Shown here: in pieces, positions 12,689 through 32,802 of the stretch
How the letters are laid out: the number at the start of each line of letters is the position of its first letter
Numbering within the stretch: position 1 is the first letter of the stretch
From: Bacillota bacterium
GTDB lineage: Bacteria; Bacillota; Negativicutes; Sporomusales; CTSoil-080
Assembly: GCA_017889725.1 (NCBI GenBank)
Contig: JAGGAE010000033.1
Coordinates: 1 to 34,778, forward strand
Reading direction: 5' to 3'
DNA length: 34,778 nt
The notes under the pieces: model-generated
What the model saw: the letters and a program-made list of their open reading frames with translations, nothing else
Told to the model about the DNA's origin: nothing
The model's database searches: none
Position numbers and translations under genes: made by a program

Positions 12689-13247
12689 ATGAAGTCTCTA
12701 TCTCATTATTTTCTTAGTGACGGTGTTTGCGGTTTATGAAATTTTAAATATTGCTGAAGCAATATTTGGTAAATTTTTGCCGGTTAAAATTCCAGGTCTT
12801 AGTTTGCTGGTAGGAATGGTAGTTATTATTGTAGTTGGCTGGATGTCGTCATTTTGGCTGTCGCAGCGGCTTATTGCTTTTGGCGAGTGGCTGCTCAGTA
12901 CCATACCGGTGGTTAAATTTATTTATAACAGTGTAAAACAGCTTTCTACCGCCGTTTTCGAAGCAGATCGCCTTTTAAATCAGGCGGTACTTGTGCCTTA
13001 CCCGCATCCTGGAGTCAAAGCGTTAGGCTTTATTATGTCGGATTTGCCGGAACATATGTCCTGCCTGCTCGACGAGGAACATGTATGTGTGTTCGTACCG
13101 ATGAGTGTCAATTTAACCAATGGATTTAATATTATCGTGCCGAAGAGGGATATAATATCTTTAGATGTTACAAGCGAAAGTGCTTTGCAATATGTCCTTA
13201 CTGCCGGGGCGGTTATGCCGAGGCAGCAAGAGGACACAAAATCTTAG
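12689..13247 (+). CDS. DUF502 membrane protein, reading frame broken near the 5' end
   Basis: The promoter, the AGAGAGGTGATTT ribosome binding site and ATG 12689 are intact and encode MKSLSHYFLS, which matches the usual DUF502 N-terminus (M-K-x-L-x-x-Y-F-L). That frame then stops at TGA 12737. The rest of the protein (VTVFAVYEILNIAE onwards, 176 aa) is in another frame from about 12714. The family's expected hydrophobic G-L-L-V-L-L-P-like stretch of TM1 is missing, so roughly 25-30 nt appear to be deleted. The remaining part has TM2 (about SLLVGMVVIIVVGWMSSFWL) and the conserved IPVVKFIYNSVKQL and PHPGVKALGFI segments. Family function is unknown. GTG 12717 could serve as a start but has no ribosome binding site. 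Confidence 0.8.
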
Positions 13248-13260
13248 GGAGAGATGCGAT

Positions 13261-14604
13261 ATCGACCCGTCGTTAGGGATTTTTGAGCTAATTATTACAT
13301 TTATATTAGTACTTGTGAATGGTTTTTTTGTAGTAGCGGAATTTTCTTTGGTAAAAATCCGTAAAACCCGCCTGGAAGAACTTTCCCTTCAGGGGAATAA
13401 CCGCGCTAAGCTGGCGATAAAAATATTGGCTACTTTTGACACATATTTAGGAGCTACGCAGCTTGGAATTACTTTGGCTTCTCTGGCATTAGGCTGGTTG
13501 GGTGAACCTGCGATAGCTTCCCTGATTAGCCCGATTTTTACTTCCTATTTTCCTGACTCTTCCTGGCTGGTACATACCATCAGCTTTGCGATTGGTTTTA
13601 TCATTATCACTTTTATGCATATTGTACTGGGAGAGCTTGTCCCTAAGTCAATGGCTATATATCGCGCAGAGAAAGTGGTGCTTTGGATCGTTTGGCCGTT
13701 GTTTATTTTTCATAAATTAGGTTATCCCATTATTGTGCTGTTCAATAAAGCCGCTAGGACTATTATGGCTCTGCTCGGCATAAAACCGGTAAGTGAAGGG
13801 GAATTGGCTCATTCCGAAGAAGAACTACGCATGCTTGTTAATGCTAGCCATCGGGGCGGTGTGCTTGACGAGATGGAAAGTGAGCTTATTGATAATGTTT
13901 TTGACTTTGCGGACCGACTGGCTAGGGAGGTTATGGTTCCCCGGCAGGATATGATTTGTTTGTTTACGGATGACTCTTTCGAAGAAAATATGAAAGTTGT
14001 GCGTGATACAGGGCATACACGATATCCTGTATGCGTGGAAGATAAGGATCATGTTGTCGGCATGATTCATATTCGCGACCTTATGGATATAAATACCTGT
14101 GGGACTGACCAGGATATCAAAAGCATTATGCGGGAAATATTAGTGGTACCCGAAGGTATGTCGGTAGCAAAACTGCTTCAATTTATGAGGCGGAAACGGA
14201 CGCATCTGGCGGTAGTGGCTGATGAATATGGCGGTACCGCAGGGCTGGTAGCCATGGAGGATGTTCTGGAAGAGATTGTAGGAGATATTCAGGATGAGCA
14301 TGATGAAGAGGATATTGATATCCAGCGCTTCCCTGACGGCAGTTTTGAATTTGAAGGCCGGGTACTCCTGGATGAAGTGGCGGAGCTCCTGAATATTGAG
14401 TTAGAGGAACATGAAGAGGATACTATCGGCGGTTACGTGTTTGGTATTTTAGGGCGAAGACCGGAGCCCGGAGATGCGCTAACTATCGGCAATTACACTT
14501 TTACGGTGTTACGGGTCAATGGTTTTAGGGTAGTGCGGGTTAATGCCCAGCCAATTGCCTGTGAGCAGGAAGCGGAAGATGAGCAGAACTCCGACCAGGT
14601 GTAA
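13261..14604 (+). CDS. CNNM/CorC-type transporter (hemolysin-family: DUF21 + CBS pair + CorC_HlyC)
   Basis: About 447 aa. DUF21/CNNM membrane domain (about 1-190, starting DPSLGIFELIITF and including NGFFVVAEFSLVKIRKTR), CBS pair (about 200-325) and C-terminal CorC_HlyC domain (about 340-430, with DEVAELLNIELEEHE and TIGGYVFGILGRRPEPGD). Proteins of this class are linked to Mg2+/Co2+ export. The expected start codon position (13261) reads ATC, with GGGAGAG 7-8 nt upstream; no ATG, GTG or TTG exists in frame between the DUF502 stop and the GTG at 13315, which would delete half of TM1. An in-frame ATG at 13165 lies inside DUF502 and is unlikely. The start is therefore uncertain. Confidence 0.85.
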   Translation: MDPSLGIFELIITFILVLVNGFFVVAEFSLVKIRKTRLEELSLQGNNRAKLAIKILATFDTYLGATQLGITLASLALGWLGEPAIASLISPIFTSYFPDSSWLVHTISFAIGFIIITFMHIVLGELVPKSMAIYRAEKVVLWIVWPLFIFHKLGYPIIVLFNKAARTIMALLGIKPVSEGELAHSEEELRMLVNASHRGGVLDEMESELIDNVFDFADRLAREVMVPRQDMICLFTDDSFEENMKVVRDTGHTRYPVCVEDKDHVVGMIHIRDLMDINTCGTDQDIKSIMREILVVPEGMSVAKLLQFMRRKRTHLAVVADEYGGTAGLVAMEDVLEEIVGDIQDEHDEEDIDIQRFPDGSFEFEGRVLLDEVAELLNIELEEHEEDTIGGYVFGILGRRPEPGDALTIGNYTFTVLRVNGFRVVRVNAQPIACEQEAEDEQNSDQV

Positions 14605-14646
14605 ATGACTTGAATTCAATCTTTACTCGCGGGAAGGATGGGAGCA

Positions 14647-14772
14647 ATGTTGATACAGGATTTAATGTGGGATGTTTTTAGTAATACCGGCGATGTTGCG
14701 GCTTATCTTTTATATCGGAAATACCAGAAGCACCGTTCGGGCAATGAACCAGTAGTTCGTGGCGGAGAGTAG
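14647..14772 (+). CDS. yqzL: YqzL family small protein
   Basis: 41 aa (MLIQDLMWDVFSNTGDVAAY...). It matches the tiny YqzL family: an N-terminal W-x-h-F-x-x-T-G-x-h-x-x-Y-L-L pattern followed by a basic tail. YqzL lies between era and recO in Bacillus, and here it lies directly upstream of recO, supporting the call. ATG 14647 was chosen over ATG 14638 because GGAAGG (14632-14637) ends right against the earlier ATG but is 9 nt from this one. Function is unknown. The stop is 11 nt from recO. Confidence 0.8.
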   Translation: MLIQDLMWDVFSNTGDVAAYLLYRKYQKHRSGNEPVVRGGE

Positions 14773-14783
14773 AGTGAAGGTAA

Positions 14784-15515
14784 ATGGGGCAATATAAAAC
14801 GGAAGCCATCCTGCTGGTTGTGCGTGATTGGGACGACAACTCAAGGATGGTGACTTTGTTTTCAAGGGATTTTGGTAAAATTTCGGCGGTAGCATATGGA
14901 GCCAGGCGTCCTAGAAATCAAATGGCCGGAACGATTCAGCCTTTCGTACAGGCGGATTTATCGTTGTTGCCTGGTAAAACGTATGACTCTATTCGACAAT
15001 GCGAGATTGTGTCTTCGTTTCGGGATATCAGGGAAGATCTTACCAAAATGGCGTATGCTAATTTTCTTGCTGAACTGGTAATTGAATTATGGCCGGAACG
15101 GGAGGCGGAACCGGCGGTTTTTGAGTTGCTTTTAGGGGCGCTTACTATGATGAAAACACGAAATCCGCGTATTACCGCACTGGCTGGAGCGCTTCAACTT
15201 CTGACTTTGGCCGGTTTTAGTCCGTCGATGACAGAATGCGCTACTTGCGGTGAAGCGTTAATTCTGCCGGCTGCGTTTGAAGTGGCGGCTGGTGGGGCAG
15301 TATGCTTGCACTGTGCACAATCGGGGGCAAACGAGTTTTCATGCGAGGCAGCTGCTTTTTGCTCAAGATTATTAGGTCTGGACTGGCAGAACCCCGGTAG
15401 CTTTTCGGTAACGGGTGCTGTATTAATGCAAACGGAGAAGATTTTGTCCGAGTTTATTACTTACTGTTTGGATAAAAAGTTAAAATCGCTTGCTTTTATT
15501 GCCGCTATTTCTTAG
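14784..15515 (+). CDS. recO: DNA repair protein RecO
   Basis: 243 aa, family-typical. An N-terminal OB fold (about 1-80) contains AYGARRPRNQMAG, and a helical C-terminal part carries a zinc-binding C4 motif (C152-A-T-C155 and C174-L-H-C177). RecO loads RecA and anneals single-strand DNA with RecR in gap repair. A weak GAAGG precedes the ATG; probable coupling to yqzL. Confidence 0.93.
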   Translation: MGQYKTEAILLVVRDWDDNSRMVTLFSRDFGKISAVAYGARRPRNQMAGTIQPFVQADLSLLPGKTYDSIRQCEIVSSFRDIREDLTKMAYANFLAELVIELWPEREAEPAVFELLLGALTMMKTRNPRITALAGALQLLTLAGFSPSMTECATCGEALILPAAFEVAAGGAVCLHCAQSGANEFSCEAAAFCSRLLGLDWQNPGSFSVTGAVLMQTEKILSEFITYCLDKKLKSLAFIAAIS

Positions 15516-15577
15516 GGGATAAAAAAGCAGTGCTTGGAGAAAATAGGTATAACCACCATGATGAAGGGGGCGCAGGG

Positions 15578-16015
15578 ATGGAAGAAATCACACTGGCCAA
15601 AATTGACCTAATCCGGGAACGAACAGGAATTTCTTATCGGGAAGCGCGGGATGTTTTAATTAAAACGCAGGGAGATGTAGTGGAGGCGCTCGTTGAACTG
15701 GAAGGACATAAAAAAAACCATTGGACAGAAGAGTTTTCGGTAAAATCCGGTGAAGTCATAGATAAAGTAAAAGATCTTATCCGGGAAGGCAATGTTACTA
15801 AAATCCGGGTTAAGCATGATGACAAGGTGTTGGTAGAAATACCGGTAACTCTGGGCGCAATTGGGGCAGTTGTTTTGCCGCAACTTGCGGCGCTCGGCGT
15901 TTTGGTGGCCGTATTTAAACGTTGCACTATTGAGGTGGTGCGCGGTGAGTCCAGTGAGGAACGGGAGGATATGGTCGGGACGGAAGAACGGGAGTCGAAT
16001 CATAATAAACTTTAA
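15578..16015 (+). CDS. DUF4342 domain protein with N-terminal UBA/EF-Ts-like helix bundle
   Basis: 145 aa from ATG 15578, preceded by AAGGGGG; the frame is also open from 15530, but that start has no good ribosome binding site. Residues 1-45 (IDLIRERTGISYREARDVLIKTQGDVVEALVELE) look like the UBA-like N-domain of EF-Ts. Residues about 50-128 form the DUF4342 part, with IREGNVTKIRVKHDDKVLVEIPVT and a hydrophobic glycine/alanine-rich stretch (about 88-112) that may be a membrane hairpin. The tail is acidic. Function unknown. Confidence 0.8.
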   Translation: MEEITLAKIDLIRERTGISYREARDVLIKTQGDVVEALVELEGHKKNHWTEEFSVKSGEVIDKVKDLIREGNVTKIRVKHDDKVLVEIPVTLGAIGAVVLPQLAALGVLVAVFKRCTIEVVRGESSEEREDMVGTEERESNHNKL

Positions 16016-16040
16016 AGAGTATTGATAAAGATATTGTTAA

Positions 16041-16066
16041 AAATCCCCCAACGGGGGATTTTTTTA
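16041..16066 (+). terminator. Intrinsic terminator after the DUF4342 gene
   Basis: AAATCCCCC (16041-16049), AAC loop, GGGGGATTT (16053-16061), followed by a T tract. It closes the yqfC-to-DUF4342 run. Confidence 0.9.
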
Positions 16067-16159
16067 TTGGCTATTCCTGCCAAAAAGCAGGAGAGTTAAT
16101 CGTAATAGCGAATTACTATAAATAGATAAATTAATTGCAAATTAAAGGATGTGCTAACG

Positions 16160-16441
16160 GTGGTGAATTTAACTCTCGTAGAAGGAAAAGATAGAGGGAA
16201 AATTGTTGTATATGCTTTAAGTACTTGCGGCTGGTGTGAGAAAACCAAACAGTTCTTGCAAGAACAAGGTTTACAATATTATTATGCAAATGTAGATTTG
16301 ACATCGGGTGATGAACGTAAGGAAATTATGGAGGAGATCGGACGCTGGAATTCAAGAAAGTCTTTTCCGACAATCGTGGTAAAAGATAAGATAGGAATTG
16401 TTGGGTTTAATAAAGAGTCGTTATTGGAGGCAGTGGAATAA
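16160..16441 (+). CDS. Glutaredoxin family protein
   Basis: About 93 aa. The redox motif S-T-C-G-W-C-E sits in the first beta-alpha unit, followed by NVDLTSGDERKEIM, the cis-Pro SFPTIVV segment and GFNKESLLEAV, a complete glutaredoxin/thioredoxin-like fold. Start candidates are GTG 16151, 16160 and 16163; AAAGGA at 16144-16149 is best spaced for 16160. The stop overlaps the next start by 1 nt, so this gene and the FTR-like gene form a pair. It probably receives electrons from that reductase instead of from glutathione. Confidence 0.85.
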   Translation: MVNLTLVEGKDRGKIVVYALSTCGWCEKTKQFLQEQGLQYYYANVDLTSGDERKEIMEEIGRWNSRKSFPTIVVKDKIGIVGFNKESLLEAVE

Positions 16442-16932
16442 TGTCTGATAAAGTCGATAAACTATATGACAGGCTGAAAAAAGAGGCGGAAAGCAGCGGG
16501 TATCATTTAAACCCGGATGTCGAGTTTACCAAAATGTTGCTTGACGGCTTGGTTAAAAATGAGGAGCGCTATAGTTATCTCGCGTGTCCTTGCCGTTTGG
16601 CGGAAGGGGAAAAAGAGGTTGATCAGGATATCATCTGTCCTTGTGATTACCGGGATGGGGACCTAAATGAGTTTAATATGTGCTATTGTGGTCTTTATGT
16701 TAGCGGCAAGTATACAAAAAGAGGGGAAGAGATACATTCCATTCCTGATCGCCGCTTGCTGGAGCCGGACAAGACGGATGAAAAATTGGATAGGCGCAGC
16801 TTGTCCCAAGAGTTGCCGTTTCCTATTTACCGGTGCAAGGTATGCGGGTATTTGTGTGCACGGGAAGCTCCGCCGGATACCTGTCCTATCTGCCATGTAT
16901 CGCATGAACGTTTTGAGGTATTCCTTGCCTAG
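16441..16932 (+). CDS. Ferredoxin:thioredoxin reductase catalytic chain fused to rubredoxin
   Basis: 163 aa. Residues about 5-95 form the FTR catalytic subunit: C49-P-C51, C66-P-C68 and C81-Y-C83 supply the 4Fe-4S ligands and active disulfide (the classic motif is CPC, CPC, CHC; the last is CYC here). Residues about 128-162 form a rubredoxin-like iron site with C132-K-V-C135 and C148-P-I-C151. FTR passes one-electron equivalents from ferredoxin to a thiol partner; the rubredoxin domain may take the place of the external donor. There is no variable (FtrB-like) chain nearby. It starts on the stop codon of the glutaredoxin gene, which makes that protein the likely substrate. Confidence 0.9.
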   Translation: MSDKVDKLYDRLKKEAESSGYHLNPDVEFTKMLLDGLVKNEERYSYLACPCRLAEGEKEVDQDIICPCDYRDGDLNEFNMCYCGLYVSGKYTKRGEEIHSIPDRRLLEPDKTDEKLDRRSLSQELPFPIYRCKVCGYLCAREAPPDTCPICHVSHERFEVFLA

Positions 16933-16937
16933 GTCTC

Positions 16938-16967
16938 TTGATTTTATTGGTTAGTATGTGCTATAGT
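16938..16967 (+). promoter_or_regulatory. Promoter of the glyQS T-box transcript
   Basis: TTGATT (16938-16943), an 18-nt spacer and TATAGT (16962-16967), directly upstream of the T-box leader. Confidence 0.65.
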
Positions 16968-16975
16968 AGTGTCAA

Positions 16976-17209
16976 TAATGGGTGATGAGAGAAAAGAGTA
17001 GCCGTGTTTCAGCGAACCGGGGGTGGTGCAAGCCTGGTAAGGCGGTGAAGGCATTTTTGAGCCGCGAGAGGAAATCCTATAGGGAGAGTAAAACTCGCAA
17101 TACAAAGAAGGCGGATCGTATACGATCAATTCAGGGTGGAACCGCGGGAGAAAATAAACTCTCGTCCCTGTAACTTTAATGTTACGGGGACGGGAGTTTT
17201 TATTTTAGT
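16976..17209 (+). ncRNA. T-box riboswitch (glycine) controlling glyQS
   Basis: The hallmark T-box sequence AGGGTGGAACCGCG is at 17133-17146, inside a structured leader directly upstream of glyQS. GGC triplets in the 5' part (e.g. around 17050) are candidate specifiers for glycine; which one sits in the specifier loop cannot be settled by eye. Uncharged tRNA-Gly binding would form the antiterminator and let transcription reach glyQ. Confidence 0.9.
17157..17209 (+). terminator. T-box regulated terminator
   Basis: A long GC-rich stem (about 17157-17173 with about 17181-17197) is followed by TTTTTATTTT. It ends about 25 nt before the glyQ start and is the alternative partner of the T-box antiterminator. 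Confidence 0.85.
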
Positions 17210-17234
17210 AAAGACTTGGAGGCGATAGGAAGTT

Positions 17235-18110
17235 ATGACTTTTCAAGAAATAATTTTAACGTTACAAAATTTTTGGGCTGATCAGAAGTGTATTATTCAG
17301 CAGCCGTATGATGTGGAAAAAGGTGCGGGAACCATGAATCCTGCTTCATTTTTACGGGCACTTGGTCCGGAACCCTGGAATGTCGCTTATGTAGAGCCGT
17401 CGCGTCGTCCGGCAGATGGCCGGTATGGGGAAAATCCTAATCGGCTTTTCCAACATCACCAGTATCAGGTTATTATGAAGCCGTCCCCGGCTAATATACA
17501 GGAACTGTATCTGGAAAGCCTAGAGAAGCTGGGAATTGACCCCGGCAAACACGATATTCGCTTTGTGGAAGATAATTGGGAAGCACCGACGCTCGGTGCT
17601 TGGGGGCTAGGCTGGGAAGTATGGCTGGATGGTATGGAAATTACTCAATTTACCTATTTTCAACAAGTCGGCAGCGTGGATGTAAAACCGGTGGCTGTTG
17701 AAATTACTTATGGCTTAGAGCGTTTGGCCATGTATATTCAGGGCAAAGAAAATGTATACGATCTGGAATGGGTGGCAGGTATAACCTATGGGGATGTATT
17801 CCATCGCAATGAAGTAGAACAGTCGCATTACAATTTTGAAATTGCCGATACAAAGATGTTGTTTAATTTATTTGATATGTACGAGAAGGAAGCTCTTCGC
17901 GTGGTGAATTTGGGTTTTGTTCTCCCTGCCTATGACTATGTGCTCAAATGTTCTCACTCTTTTAATTTGCTAGATGCTCGCGGCGCTATCAGTGTAAGTG
18001 AACGTACGGCGTTCATCGGTAGAGTGCGCAACTTGGCAAGACTCTGTGCGCAAGGGTACTTAGAACAAAGGGAAAAACTAGGTTACCCGCTGCTGAAAGG
18101 GGGAAAATAG
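17235..18110 (+). CDS. glyQ: Glycyl-tRNA synthetase alpha subunit
   Basis: 291 aa, the catalytic class II subunit of the bacterial alpha2beta2-type GlyRS. Signature segments are visible: the N-terminal [52 protein letters not shown] and [20 protein letters not shown]. It makes glycyl-adenylate and charges tRNA-Gly with GlyS. Expression is under the T-box upstream. Start ATG 17235 follows GGAGG; glyS starts 3 nt after the stop. Confidence 0.97.
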
Positions 18111-18112
18111 TA

Positions 18113-20173
18113 ATGGCAAAAGATTTATTGTTGGAAATCGGTACGGAGGAAATGCCTGCGAAGTTTATACCAGGTGCACTTCGGGACCTGAAGGATATAG
18201 CAACCGAAAAATTTAACGACCGGAGAATTTCTTTTAGCGAAATAAAGACTTTTGGCACACCTCGCCGTCTGGCCCTTTTAGTGCGTGATGTAGTTGAAAA
18301 GCAGGCTGACTTAAGCAGTGAGAATAAAGGACCTTCTCTTAAAATTGCCTATGATGCGCAAGGGATACCCACTAAGGCGGCACAAGGATTTGCGCGGGGG
18401 CAGGGAGTCCCGGTGGAACAGCTTGTTGAAAAAGACGGTTATGTGTATGCCCTGGTGCAGGAGAGAGGACGTGAGGTAGAAACTTTACTGCCGGATTTGC
18501 TGCCTGAAATAATAACAGCACTTAGTTTCCCTAAAAACATGCGCTGGGGTGATCTGGATATTAAGTTTATCCGACCGATACGGTGGCTGCTGGCCGCGTA
18601 TGGCAAAAAGAGCATCCCGTTTGAGTTCGCCGGTATTACTTCCGGTATGATAAGCTATGGTCACCGCTTTTTAAGTAAAGGAAAGATTACGATAGAAGTG
18701 GTTGAGGATTATTTTGTCAGGATGACAGAAAACCATGTTATGGTCGATCAAGAGTTGAGGCGCGAGGTCATTCGTGAACAAGTGGAGAAGCTAGCCCTTC
18801 AGCAGGGTGGCAAGGCTGTCATTGACGAAGATTTGCTGGAAGAAGTCGTCTATTTGGTAGAATATCCTACTGCTTTGTGCGGTAGATTTGAAGAAAAATA
18901 CTTAGCGTTGCCGCCGGAAGCCGTTATTACACCCATGCGCGAACACCAACGGTATTTTCCGGTGTTTGACGAAGCGGGCAATTTGCTGCCGGTGTTCATT
19001 ACCGTCCGCAACGGAGGACAAGATTATATTGATATCGTCCGGCAAGGTAATGAGCGAGTTTTAAGGGCCAGACTGGCGGATGCAGGTTTCTTTTTTGAAG
19101 AAGACAAAAAGATTTCATTGGAAGCACGGGTAGAAAAGCTCAAAAGCATTGTATACCAGGATGGTCTGGGGACCATGTTTGATAAAGCAGAGCGGTTAGA
19201 GAAGTTGGCCGGTTTTATTGCTCAAGAAGCGGGAGTGGCCCAAGCGGAACTGCCTGTTATACTACGTGGGGCGCATCTGGCCAAGGCTGATTTAGTAACC
19301 GGTATGGTATGCGAGTTTACCGAATTACAAGGGATAATGGGAAAGGAATATGCCCTTTTGAGCGGGGAATCTCCCGCAGTGGCCCAGGCGATTTATGAGC
19401 ATTATTTACCCCGGTTTGCGGGAGATGTCTTGCCGCAAACGACGGCGGGCCGAATGGTAAGTCTTGCTGATAAACTAGACAGCATTGTGGCTACTTTCAG
19501 TCGCGGGCTGATTCCTACAGGGTCGCAGGATCCATTTGCCCTGCGGCGGCAGGCGCTGGGGATTGTAAATATTATATTGAAAGCCGGTATCAAGCTATCG
19601 CTTACTAAACTATTTGGCAAGGCAATGGATTTGCTAGCCATTACTCAGCCCGAACGTAGGGAAAAACTGGAAGATGACTTAATGGAATTTTTCCGGCTGA
19701 GGCTGAAAAACGTTTTCACTGAAGAAGGCATGAGATATGACCATATTGATGCTGTATTAGCCGCTGGGTTTGGTGATATACTCGATACTTGGCGGAAGGC
19801 AAAAGCTTTAACTGATCTTGGAGATAGTGAAGAGCTAAGACTTACTGTACAGGCACTTACCCGGGTAGGAAACTTGGCAAAGAATGCGGGCAAAGAGTCT
19901 GTTAACCCTGAGGTGTTCGTTACTGAGGTCGAGAAGAAGTTGTATCAGGCACTCACGGATGCCGTTAAGAAAGCTGAGGGTTTCCGGCAGAAACATGACT
20001 ATCCGGGTGTCTTAAAGACAATTGCTTCACTTACCGGACCCATCGACGATTTTTTTGGCGAAGTTATGGTCATGGTTGACGATATTCATGTACGCACTAA
20101 CCGGCTGGCCTTATTAAAAGGAATCGCCGGACTGGCGGCTGACTTTGCGGATTTAACAAAACTTGTAGTATAA
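18113..20173 (+). CDS. glyS: Glycyl-tRNA synthetase beta subunit
   Basis: 686 aa, full length. The N-terminus LLLEIGTEEMPAKFIP is diagnostic; MREHQRYFPVF and the HD-like NGGQD.. core are in the middle, and the C-terminal anticodon-binding part includes FFGEVMVMVDD. It binds the tRNA and is needed for activity of GlyQ. Translationally coupled to glyQ (3-nt gap, GGGGG ribosome binding site at the glyQ end). Confidence 0.97.
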   Translation: MAKDLLLEIGTEEMPAKFIPGALRDLKDIATEKFNDRRISFSEIKTFGTPRRLALLVRDVVEKQADLSSENKGPSLKIAYDAQGIPTKAAQGFARGQGVPVEQLVEKDGYVYALVQERGREVETLLPDLLPEIITALSFPKNMRWGDLDIKFIRPIRWLLAAYGKKSIPFEFAGITSGMISYGHRFLSKGKITIEVVEDYFVRMTENHVMVDQELRREVIREQVEKLALQQGGKAVIDEDLLEEVVYLVEYPTALCGRFEEKYLALPPEAVITPMREHQRYFPVFDEAGNLLPVFITVRNGGQDYIDIVRQGNERVLRARLADAGFFFEEDKKISLEARVEKLKSIVYQDGLGTMFDKAERLEKLAGFIAQEAGVAQAELPVILRGAHLAKADLVTGMVCEFTELQGIMGKEYALLSGESPAVAQAIYEHYLPRFAGDVLPQTTAGRMVSLADKLDSIVATFSRGLIPTGSQDPFALRRQALGIVNIILKAGIKLSLTKLFGKAMDLLAITQPERREKLEDDLMEFFRLRLKNVFTEEGMRYDHIDAVLAAGFGDILDTWRKAKALTDLGDSEELRLTVQALTRVGNLAKNAGKESVNPEVFVTEVEKKLYQALTDAVKKAEGFRQKHDYPGVLKTIASLTGPIDDFFGEVMVMVDDIHVRTNRLALLKGIAGLAADFADLTKLVV

Positions 20174-20174
20174 T

Positions 20175-20212
20175 AAAACTCCTCCGAGAATTATTCTTGG
20201 AGGAGTTTTTCT
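20175..20212 (+). terminator. Terminator after glyS
   Basis: AAAACTCCTCC pairs with GGAGGAGTTTT, with a short internal loop, then a T tract ending at 20210. Confidence 0.9.
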
Positions 20213-20307
20213 ATAGTTAGTATTATCGTTACAATTTTTGCAGGATAATCTGGAGGCTTCGTCAAAAAATAAAGGTATGTATGTAAGTGATAAGGGAGGT
20301 AATTATT

Positions 20308-21126
20308 ATTTCGACAACACCAATCATCTACGCCCTCTCTGACTCTATTGGCGAGACAGCGGAAATGGTGGCCAGGGCGACGGCCAGCCAATATGATTCC
20401 GGTGAATTTGATATTATTCGAGTTTCCTATATTACTTCGGTAACGCAAATTGCTGAGACGTTGGAAATGGCATCCCGGCAGCCTAGTGTGATTTGCCATA
20501 CTTTGGTTTCGCAGGAGCTGAGAGAGGCGTTTAAAGAACTGGCGGCAAACAGTAATGTGCCTATTATCGATATTATGGGCCCGATGATTCAGGCTGTACA
20601 GAAAATTACAAGCTTGACGCCAAAGTTAAAGCCGGGCTTGGTACATCAATTGGATCAAGATTATTTTCGTAGAGTAGAAGCTGTGGAATTTGCCGTAAAG
20701 TATGATGATGGCAAAAACCCTTGGGGTTTAAAAAATGCGGACATTATTCTTGTAGGGGTGTCACGGACTTCCAAAACTCCGTTAAGTATGTACCTGGCGC
20801 ACAAAAAAGTGAAAGTGGCGAATGTACCTTTAGTGCCGGAGGTGGCTCCGCCGCAGGAGCTATATGATATACCGACATCAAAGGTTGTAGGTCTTGTTAT
20901 TAATACCGACAAGCTAAATCAAATTCGTACAGAACGGCTAAGATCAATGGGGTTGGCGTCGGATGCGAACTATGCCAATATTGCCCGGATTGAAGAAGAA
21001 TTGGAATATGCCAAAAGTATTATGAGGAAGCTGCGCTGCCCGGTAATTGATGTGTCCAATAAAGCGATTGAAGAAACAGCCAATCGAATATTGGAAATTG
21101 TCCACAAAAATAGGCAGCAACGCTAA
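20308..21126 (+). CDS. Pyruvate,phosphate dikinase regulatory protein (bifunctional Ser/Thr kinase/phosphorylase, YqfL/PDRP family)
   Basis: About 272 aa. The N-terminal IYALSDSIGETAEMVARA and the P-loop-like GVSRTSKTPLSMYLA (about residues 149-163) are the signatures of the DUF299/PDRP family, which inactivates PPDK or PEP synthase by ADP-dependent phosphorylation and reactivates it by phosphorolysis. AAGGGAGG (20292-20299) points to a start 8 nt later, where the codon is ATT (20308), giving (M)STTPIIYALSD, a natural family N-terminus. The upstream GTG 20287 precedes that ribosome binding site and would add seven unusual residues. The usual upstream neighbour ccpN is not present. Confidence 0.9.
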   Translation: MSTTPIIYALSDSIGETAEMVARATASQYDSGEFDIIRVSYITSVTQIAETLEMASRQPSVICHTLVSQELREAFKELAANSNVPIIDIMGPMIQAVQKITSLTPKLKPGLVHQLDQDYFRRVEAVEFAVKYDDGKNPWGLKNADIILVGVSRTSKTPLSMYLAHKKVKVANVPLVPEVAPPQELYDIPTSKVVGLVINTDKLNQIRTERLRSMGLASDANYANIARIEEELEYAKSIMRKLRCPVIDVSNKAIEETANRILEIVHKNRQQR

Positions 21127-21133
21127 ACACAAA

Positions 21134-21159
21134 AGACTTGGCACTAGCCAAGTCTCTAT
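21134..21159 (-). terminator. Terminator of the LptA-like gene
   Basis: Perfect 9-bp stem AGACTTGGC-ACTA-GCCAAGTCT (21134-21155). Read on the minus strand it is followed by TTTTGTGTTT, so it mainly serves the minus-strand gene; on the plus strand there is no T tract. Confidence 0.65.
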
Positions 21160-21168
21160 GTATGTCCT

Positions 21169-21613
21169 TTATAGAATAGTATTAGTTTCGACGTTGTACT
21201 GCAACGAATTGGTTGTCCAAACGTTTCCATTTTGGTTAACCGTAACATTGCCGGAGAAAGTGCCGATTTTGCTTCGCCAGTTAAATTCGGCTTTGTTTGC
21301 GGTAATAACCAGTCCGGTACGGCTAAAACTTACACCTCCGTCGATTTCTGCCCGATCTTGGGCTCCGTAAACATAAACACTATCGCCGGTAAAACAGATA
21401 TCATCTTGTGTTACTGTTACACCACCGGATCCCCATACTTCAAGTGAACCAACGCTAACTTTTGCTTGATTGGCGGTAATGATTCTATTTTTCACTTGAA
21501 GATACACATTGCCGCTTAGCACGTACAGACCGGTATTTATATCGTAATAAGAGGAATCCGATTGAATAACCGGTTTAGGTAAGTACAGTTAGGATAATGG
21601 AACGGTTTTTCAT
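21169..21613 (-). CDS. LptA/OstA-like protein, reading frame broken in the signal-peptide region
   Basis: From ATG 21613 the minus strand encodes MKNRSIILTVLT, the start of a signal peptide, and then hits TAA at 21577-21575. The next frame, open from about 21576, continues as KPVIQSDSSYYDINTG followed by LSGNVYLQVKNRIITANQAK and repeated beta-strand units (GDSVYVYGAQDRAEIDGG, ANKAEFNWRSKIGTFSGNVT) typical of the OstA/LptA N-terminal fold, which carries LPS across the periplasm in diderms. The hydrophobic core and cleavage region expected in between are missing, suggesting an out-of-frame deletion. GTG 21522 is the first conventional start in the downstream frame but leaves no export signal. 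It stands alone, outside any lpt operon. Confidence 0.7.
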
Positions 21614-21678
21614 AATTTCGATATCCCGCCTTTCCATTGATACTACTATTATATCAAAAGTAAAAGTATTTTTGTATC

Positions 21679-21714
21679 CAGTAAAAAAAAGGATATCAGT
21701 AAAAAAAAGGATAA
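21679..21714. repeat. Tandem repeat, 2 x 18 bp
   Basis: Two adjacent copies of an 18-bp unit CAGTAAAAAAAAGGATAT (21679-21696 and 21697-21714; the last base differs). It lies between the divergent LptA-like and dgt genes. Confidence 0.85.
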
Positions 21715-21747
21715 TCAAATAAAGTAAGAACAGGGAGTGCTGTTATT

Positions 21748-22690
21748 TTGACTATCCGTGAACGAATAGAGCAACTCGAGCTAACGCTTCTTTCGCCGCT
21801 GGCGGCAAAAAGCTGTGAGGCGGTCAGAGACAGGGAAGAAGCCCCTTGCGATTTTCGCAGTGCGTATCAGCGAGATCGGGATCGTATTCTTCATAGTAAA
21901 GCCTTTAGACGTGACGCATAGTTTGGAAACGGCACAAATTTCTAGGACTATTGCCCGGGGATTACGGCTTAATGAGGATTTGGTAGAAGCTATTGCCTTA
22001 GGGCATGATGTCGGGCATACTCCTTTTAGCCACGCGGGGGAAGAAGCGCTTAAGGAAATTTTGGGACAGTATGCTCATAATGAACAAAGTCTTCGCGTTG
22101 TGGAATGTTTAGAGCGGGATGGTCAAGGGCTGAATTTGACCCGGGCGGTTAAGGATGGAATCGCGAATCATACTGGACCGAATAAGCCATATACTTTGGA
22201 AGGAAATATTGTGCGTATTGGCGACCGCATTGCTTACCTTTGCCATGATTATGACGATGGTATGCGGGCAGGATTGCTTAGACAAAGTGATTTACCGCCT
22301 AATGTTAGATGCGTGCTGGGCGAGAAACCTTCGTCTATGATTAGCATTATGGTGGCGGATATGATCCGGGTTTCCGAGACCGCTGGCGAAATAATGTTGT
22401 CGTCGCCCGTGCAGGCGGCCATGGATGAATTTAGGCAGTTTATGTTCCGGGCCGTATATAATTCGGAAAAACTGGACGATGAGCGTCGTAAGGCCAAGTA
22501 TGTTATTCATAAACTTTATGAACATTATATGTCTTTTCCGGAGGCTTTGCCGAAAGAATTTATTGATAAAGAAAGTCGATGGAACATCGAAACCGCTGTT
22601 GTCGACTATATTGCAGGTTTGACCGACACATACGCTATTTACACCTTTGAAAAACTGTTTGTTCCTCCTAATGGAATAATAGCGAGGTAA
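21748..22690 (+). CDS. dgt: dGTPase-family HD phosphohydrolase, reading frame broken near residue 55
   Basis: TTG 21748 behind AGGGAG starts a good Dgt N-terminus: SPLAAKSCEAVRDREE, DFRSAYQRDRDRILHSKAFRR (residues about 36-55). The frame then reads D-A-stop at 21913-21921. The protein resumes in another frame at 21914 with THSLETAQISRTIARGL and the HD dyad in IALGHDVGHTPFSHAGEEAL, and runs to 22690 with a normal C-terminus. Family members have about 20 residues between FRR and THS (the L-K-x-K-T-Q-V-F region); these are absent, so about 59 nt appear deleted. The product would hydrolyse dGTP (or other dNTPs) to nucleoside and triphosphate. ATG 21815 in the downstream frame is not a plausible start. 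Confidence 0.85.
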
Positions 22691-22949
22691 GCTTGTTAAA
22701 AAGGCAGACATTTTATTATCAGCCACGCATCGTTTGTCAAGAGGAAAAGAGGATATTGACGATTTATCTTGAATAGGATTAATCATAAGATAAAAAGTTG
22801 GCTTTAATAATTTTAATTGGAAAGAAGGATAACTGAGCTAATTGCAGAATAAACATTAGGTTCAATTTATGTTTAGTTATTTCGGACTTAAAATAATAGT
22901 AGAGAGCAAAGATAATTTTATAGCACTGTAACACATTAGAGGTGGTGAA
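22691..22949. other. Intergenic region between dgt and dnaG
   Basis: 259 AT-rich nt with no convincing gene. It contains a perfect 7-bp inverted repeat TAAACAT (22850-22856)/ATGTTTA (22869-22875) that could be an operator or hairpin. In Bacillus yqxD lies in this position relative to dnaG; no trace of its start motif was found. Confidence 0.5.
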
Positions 22950-24694
22950 ATGAGAGACACGGGATATGACGGTTTGATCGACGAGGGAAAAATTACTGGG
23001 GTTGTTGTCCGTTTCACCATGAAAAAACGCCGTCTTTTTCTGTGACTCCTGATAAAGGTTTTTTTTATTGTTTTGGCTGTCAGTCTGGAGGAAACGTTTT
23101 TAATTTCTTGATGAAAATTGAAAATCTTGATTTTCCGGATGCGGTAAAATTGTTGGCTAACAAGCTAGGGGTTCCGTTGCCGGAAAAGGAAAAATCCGCC
23201 CGAGACCGGCAGTTAGAACGGGAAATGGCTCAGCTTTACCGTTCTAATGATCTGGCAAGGGATTTTTTTCACTCATGTCTGGTTAATACTGGATATGGGA
23301 AGGAGGCACGAGAATATTTATCTAATAGGGGGATTACCGCCGAAATTATTGATGAATTTAAGTTGGGGTTTAGTCCTCCCGCATGGGATAAACTAACAGG
23401 GGCGCTTAGCGAGCGAGGGGTTATGCCAGAGACGCTGGTTAAAGCCGGGTTGGCGGTACAGCGCTCCGGCAGTGGTGTTTATGACCGGTTCCGGGGGCGT
23501 ATCATGTTCCCGATTAACGATGCACAGGGGCGGGTTGTGGGGTTTGGCGGCCGGGTGCTTGATGTCTCACAGCCTAAGTACTTAAATACGCCCGAAACCC
23601 TCGTTTTTAACAAACGCCATATCCTGTATGGTTTTGATGTTGCTAATTCATTTATCCGGCAAACCGGCAAGGTGGTTGTAGTTGAAGGATATATGGATTT
23701 GATTGCGCTTAGAAATAGCGGGATAAAAAATGTGGTTGCCTCGTTAGGTACGGCGTTTACGCCGGATCAGGCCCGTAAACTGGTTCGTGTTCGGGCCCGG
23801 GAAATCTTTTTTGCTTATGACAGTGATGCCGCCGGGCAGGAGGCAACAGTGCGAGCTTTAAATACGGTTAAAGCCTTGGGATTTGCTGTTCGCATTGTTG
23901 CAATGCCTGATGGTAAAGATCCGGATGAGTATGTCAGGAAACATGGGCAATCGGCGTTTAATGAGTTGATCGAACAAGCTCCCGGGTTACTTGAGTATCA
24001 AGTGAAACGGGCGATTGAGACCACGGATACTTCAGGACTTGAGGGCAAGGTTGCCGTTGTTGCAAAAGCGGTACCGGCGTTAGCCGAGGCGGATAATGCG
24101 GTAGAGGTTGCCAATCATATTCGTAATTTATCTGAGACATTAGCCATTGATGAAGGGGCAATACGTTCCGAGATACGAAAATATATTGCTCAAAGTAAAA
24201 AGGATAAAAATGTAAGTTTAGGGAAGAATATTAATATTTCCAGCCTTTCGCAACGGCCGGGACAAAGCATAGTTGTGGCAGAACGTCAGCTCATTCGGTT
24301 AATGTTTGAAGACTTTTCTATTATTCCTTATGTTGAAACCCAGATCAGTGGAGATGATATTCAGGGACGGGAGCGCAAAATAATAATCAAATCCCTGTTT
24401 GCTGCGTATAATATGGAAAAAAGTTTGATTCCGGACGTTTTTGCGTTAACGCTGCCTGGAGAGGCGGCAAATGAGTTATCCAATATTATGGTTATGGAAA
24501 TGGATTTTGAAGACATAGCCAAAGTGGTTGATGATTTGATTAAGGCCATTCGATTGGCTTGTCTCAAAGGGCTACTGGAAGAACACAGCTTACGAGCTCA
24601 AGAATTAGAACGCATGGGGGATAGCAACTTTCTGCAGGAATTAGCCGAAAGTCAGCGAATACATGATGAAATTAGTAAATTACGCCTGTTATAA
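22950..24694 (+). CDS. dnaG: DNA primase DnaG, reading frame broken near residue 12
   Basis: GGTGGTG and ATG 22950 begin MRDTGYDGLIDE, a normal primase N-terminus, but that frame ends at TGA 23043. The rest reads in another frame from about 22982: RGKNYWGCCPFHHEKTPSF and FYCFGCQSGGNVFNF, the CHC2 zinc-binding domain with its Cys/His ligands. The catalytic TOPRIM domain follows (VVVEGYMDLIAL, about 200 residues further, with FAYDSDAAGQEA), then the C-terminal DnaB-binding part. About 20 residues, normally I-V-x-V-I-x-x-Y-V-x-L-K-K, are missing, corresponding to an out-of-frame deletion of about 61 nt. The next possible start, GTG 23042, would lose half of the zinc site. Primase is essential, so a sequence error or an unusual decoding event must be considered. 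It lies upstream of rpoD as usual. Confidence 0.92.
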
Positions 24695-32650: not shown

Positions 32651-32669
32651 TGGAAAAAATAATATATGT

Positions 32670-32757
32670 AAGGGAGCTCATGGTATGGGCTGAGAAAGGG
32701 CTAGTAAGCACCTGACCTTTTGACCTGATCGGGATAATGCCCGCGTAGGAAGCGATT
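32670..32757 (+). ncRNA. TPP riboswitch (THI element)
   Basis: Conserved blocks GGGCTGAGA (32687-32695), ACCTGATC (32723-32730), GGATAATGCC (32732-32741) and GCGTAGGAAG (32743-32752) occur in the right order. Located between the thi promoter and a terminator before thiS; thiamine pyrophosphate should switch off transcription. Confidence 0.95.
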
Positions 32758-32765
32758 TTGCGTAT

Positions 32766-32802
32766 AAGCGCACCTAACAATGGGTGCGCTTTATTTTTTT
32801 TC
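32766..32802 (+). terminator. TPP-controlled terminator
   Basis: AAGCGCACC (32766-32774)/GGTGCGCTT (32783-32791), followed by TATTTTTTTT. It ends just before the thiS ribosome binding site. Confidence 0.92.

Follow-up and report, generated by a model that had tools for sequence, protein, structure and literature searches.

Short unmarked losses in conserved genes of a Negativicutes draft genome are best read as collapsed assembly gaps

Draft and metagenome assemblies are generally known to contain scaffold gaps that have been collapsed and N runs that have been removed, and such faults leave clean joins of arbitrary length and frame. Clean deletions of tens of nucleotides are also produced by slipped-strand deletion between short direct repeats, and in translational bypassing, as in gene 60 of phage T4, a gene is read across a discontinuity. 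The losses described here most resemble collapsed gaps, with which they share not only the clean joins and the arbitrary lengths and frames but also the involvement of conserved core genes, local clustering and absence from relatives; the difference is that here the responsible step is one that we infer. They are as clean as slipped-strand deletions, whereas that process requires direct repeats at the deletion ends and the microhomology at these junctions is at chance level. The likeness to bypassing ends with the discontinuity itself, as bypassing skips extra mRNA, whereas here it is coding sequence that is missing.

The window, a stretch of 34,778 nucleotides, is the whole of one contig (C47) of a 1.79-Mb, 108-contig draft genome judged 65% complete. 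By the glyS protein, the drafts CTSoil_081 (L002) and CTSoil_080 (L016) come closest to it among named relatives; Selenomonadales drafts, Lucifera and Pelosinus come next. Four of its genes, those for a DUF502 protein, an LptA-like protein, Dgt and DnaG, had been reported in the initial annotation to be interrupted soon after their starts, and translation together with comparison to relatives establishes that all four breaks are real and lie close to where they had been placed. Each gene begins normally, loses a short stretch and then continues in a different frame.

Measured against one further genome of the same genus (G001) or against L002, the DUF502 gene (12689-13247, forward strand; Pfam DUF502) has lost 29 nt near position 12718, after codon 10, and is out of frame downstream. 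The LptA-like gene (21169-21613, reverse strand; LptD_N/OstA domain) has lost about 35-38 nt near 21580, within its presumed signal-peptide region; this length is approximate because the region varies among relatives, 38 nt being the sum of four merged gaps. The dGTP triphosphohydrolase gene dgt (21748-22690, forward strand; NCBIfam assignment made on the intact relative) lacks 56 nt near 21912, a gap that comparison with the relative's protein places between codons 55 and 74 of the latter, and the DNA primase gene dnaG (22950-24694, forward strand; assigned by domain search) lacks 61 nt near 22980. The lengths estimated earlier for these genes, in the same order, were 25-30 nt, unknown, 59 nt and 61 nt, and domain searches confirmed the family assignments.

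In relatives the start regions are unbroken wherever the fetched locus holds the gene: among ten loci, DUF502 is present in six, LptA-like in nine, dgt in seven and dnaG in nine, one of these last being cut by a contig end. Within the part of the window covered by L002, L016 and L005 (~6.9-32.6 kb, the first 6.9 and last 2 kb lying outside), no further broken conserved genes were found. When 127 gene pairs were compared against the window, there were seven frame-changing rows, six of them due to dgt and the seventh to a single distant pair that differs by 13 nt. As a control, the window locus was compared among eight other genomes, and frame-changing net differences of at least 12 nt occurred in 3 of 836 pairs. 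We also note that in this control a gene of L003, another draft, homologous to L004:3748-5106, shows a frame-changing net loss of 56 nt, and unmarked losses may occur elsewhere, in other drafts too.

The initial annotation had proposed looking for the same pattern throughout the genome, and it does recur: a further eight conserved genes, spread over three contigs besides that of the window, are affected in a sample comprising the window and 40 further stretches (41 stretches and 584 kb in all, 579 kb of it readable), compared with part of G001, from which genes were taken from up to 1.21 Mb. A first survey used 129 queries with an orthologue-like match, drawn from about half of this 1.21-Mb sequence, and gave eight frame changes: five genes of contig C8, one of C4, dgt, and one 2-nt shift close to the end of a contig. 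The frame-changing losses of dgt and the six genes outside the window span 47-160 nt.

A DNA-level survey was also carried out. A preliminary pass, in which proteins were at least 50% identical and gaps at least 12 nt, was noisy, with 174 rows for 190 pairs, and was repeated with an identity cut of 68%, which left 144 pairs of genes from this genome and G001 and 123,742 aligned nt. Twenty-four rows resulted, 12 of which were accepted as losses. The other 12 were dropped: two at codon 2 that reflect start differences, two in-frame differences near C-termini, four insertions, an ambiguous in-frame difference of 48 nt in an Omp85/POTRA gene, and three in genes whose similarity was low or whose match was poor. 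The accepted losses comprise the four in the window, six in the first 20 kb of C8 (argH, 74 nt; ilvE, 114 nt; argC, 160 nt; cdaA, 118 nt; a LigB-domain gene, 101 nt; rpsI, 47 nt), one in C4 (a NiFe-hydrogenase gene, 121 nt) and one in C2 (ilvD, 120 nt). Housekeeping genes are among those affected, including dnaG and rpsI. On C8 the losses are clustered, with 6 of 17 pairs affected in the first 20 kb and none of the 30 in the 16 kb that follow (p 0.001); across all contigs clustering is borderline (P 0.058).

The comparison was also run in reverse. A survey of 133 queries gave eight rows, in which all shifts were of 4 nt or less. The corresponding DNA-level survey (14 rows) showed two apparent frame-changing losses in G001 itself, of 67 nt near an ORF start and of 103 nt near a contig end, and these are a point against the reading of the losses as assembly artefacts.

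Net lengths fall into all three classes modulo 3, and 2 of 12 are in frame where one third would be expected (p 0.36), so that in this small sample length appears indifferent to frame. The two in-frame cases, ilvD and ilvE, lack 40 and 38 residues, respectively, and are otherwise 86-87% identical to their G001 counterparts. Microhomology was assessed at every junction except that of the LptA-like gene (11 of 12), and indirectly, as the lost ends were judged through G001; its mean was 0.64 nt, compared with 0.55 nt in 1500 simulated cuts (P 0.39). Direct repeats at these 11 junctions are therefore no more frequent than in simulated random cuts, and repeat-mediated slippage is not seen. Nor did the base composition of the 11 missing segments, as judged in G001, reveal anything consistent.

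The suggestion that the losses share a 5'-proximal character holds for the four window genes and fails outside the window. All four window junctions fall within the first 75 codons, a region that accounts for about 24% of codons in G001 ORFs, as against one of the eight junctions elsewhere (Fisher p 0.010). The outside junctions lie between 18% and 78% of the way along the gene, from codon 51 of 281 to codon 433 of 552, and the positions in these eight genes are consistent with a uniform distribution (KS p 0.74). A process specific to 5' ends was considered and rejected because seven of the eight outside losses lie beyond codon 75. The four window breaks are not independent draws, because three of them fall in a single 1.4-kb patch that contains three gene starts, two of which are divergent. 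An entirely blind gap process would not predict the window's excess at gene starts, a point against it that is tempered by the sharing of this patch.

Signs of ordinary decay were sought among 128 classified queries, of which 100 were intact single matches, nine ran off the stretch, eight showed frame changes, eight were partly covered and three contained apparent stops. This sorting leaves in-frame losses unseparated, and it classed dnaG as intact because its match exceeded 93%. All three flagged stops are at alignment ends, two near the last residues and one ahead of the likely start, and there is no convincing nonsense mutation among the 128. The sole small frame change, that of 2 nt, is close to a contig end and is counted among the eight. 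Two of the partly covered queries correspond to the DUF502 and LptA-like losses, two are the L202 and L203 genes, and four are others. Pseudogene decay is not supported, as it would have left point frameshifts and stops, and among these queries the single 2-nt shift is all that was seen. A search of the assembly for second copies of dnaG, argC and ilvD found none.

One further discontinuity was observed on contig C2 of this genome, where a gene related to L203:4459-4899 (L089:996-1469) matches for the first 54 of 147 codons only, the match ceasing just before the end of ilvD. This break is possibly another join.

The losses recur on other contigs and are indifferent to frame; beyond the window they are scattered along the genes, and microhomology is lacking. 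As losses of this kind are seen in other genes, at many positions and in any frame, the cause is almost surely a fault of sequence assembly, and sequence comparison indicates that the four window breaks are very probably artefacts of this kind rather than biology. Collapsed gaps or removed ambiguous bases were the reading preferred at the outset, and it accords with almost all of the evidence, being strengthened by the occurrence of losses on other contigs, at varied positions, both in and out of frame and in core genes, with chance-level microhomology and no marks of decay. We propose that assembled pieces were joined at several places over short stretches (~30-160 nt) that were uncovered or unresolved, and that the unknown bases were dropped rather than written as N. 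A gene would then simply look short when the number of lost bases is divisible by three, and would otherwise be thrown out of frame. The step itself was most likely either gap-blind contig joining, with no N written, or the stripping of N ahead of deposition, and the missing bases should still be present in the raw reads or the true genome.

The 579 kb of readable sequence from this genome (41 stretches) contains no N, an absence that is compatible with N removal without proving it. N runs are present in 4 of 80 named loci, and another genome, to which one of these loci belongs, retains a gap of 386 positions in its coordinates, as judged from match coordinates. Stripping of N by the sequence collection used here was considered and is thought unlikely, given that these 386 positions were kept at an N run; the loss probably occurred upstream of that collection. 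A literature search returned no title, and no opening part of an abstract, that names such an artefact.

The alternative that the assembly is faithful, and that a lineage or strain mixture has been accumulating short deletions through a hypermutable process or early genome decay, would account for breaks that are clean, locally clustered and without N at their junctions, and for the preference for gene starts in the window. It would require that dnaG was disrupted although there is no second copy in the assembly, that rpsI was hit too, and that ilvD and ilvE lost conserved interior sequence, all while both flanking halves of each gene stayed well conserved and no convincing nonsense mutation arose alongside, the one small frame change being near a contig end. 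With microhomology at chance there is also no trace of repeat-mediated slippage, and we regard real deletions as improbable. A more novel form of this explanation seems to us less probable again: core genes of the sampled population would hold numerous clean deletions of 30-160 nt, non-homologous in origin and caught before selection removed them, for example because of a strong deletion mutator, and in the window these would locally favour gene starts.

Conservation of the gene bodies on either side of the junctions might also suggest that bypassing or programmed frameshifting yields a working protein from the gapped genes. What separates these genes from their relatives is the absence of ~10 to 53 codons and not the presence of extra ones, and no ribosomal hop could supply them; the losses follow no frame rule, their net lengths taking every value modulo 3 and 2 of the 12 preserving the frame, and the relatives carry plain intact genes. 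Such decoding is exceedingly improbable. Collapsed assembly gaps thus remain the preferred reading, under which this draft carries unmarked losses in 12 of 144 compared gene pairs and offers no pointer to new biology. With this proportion of pairs affected, broken or short genes in this genome should not be called pseudogenes, cases of recoding or domain losses without recourse to the reads.

Other features were noted in the window. Upstream of glyQ, at 16980-17175, the sequence resembles a T-box core with a terminator-like hairpin after it; Rfam at gathering thresholds lists no T-box at these positions. An ORF of 86 residues at 1009-1269 resembles, by eye, an isolated fragment of FliG. Finally, Rfam identifies a TPP riboswitch at 32660-32768, and it lies ahead of ORFs that, judged by eye, resemble thiamine genes.
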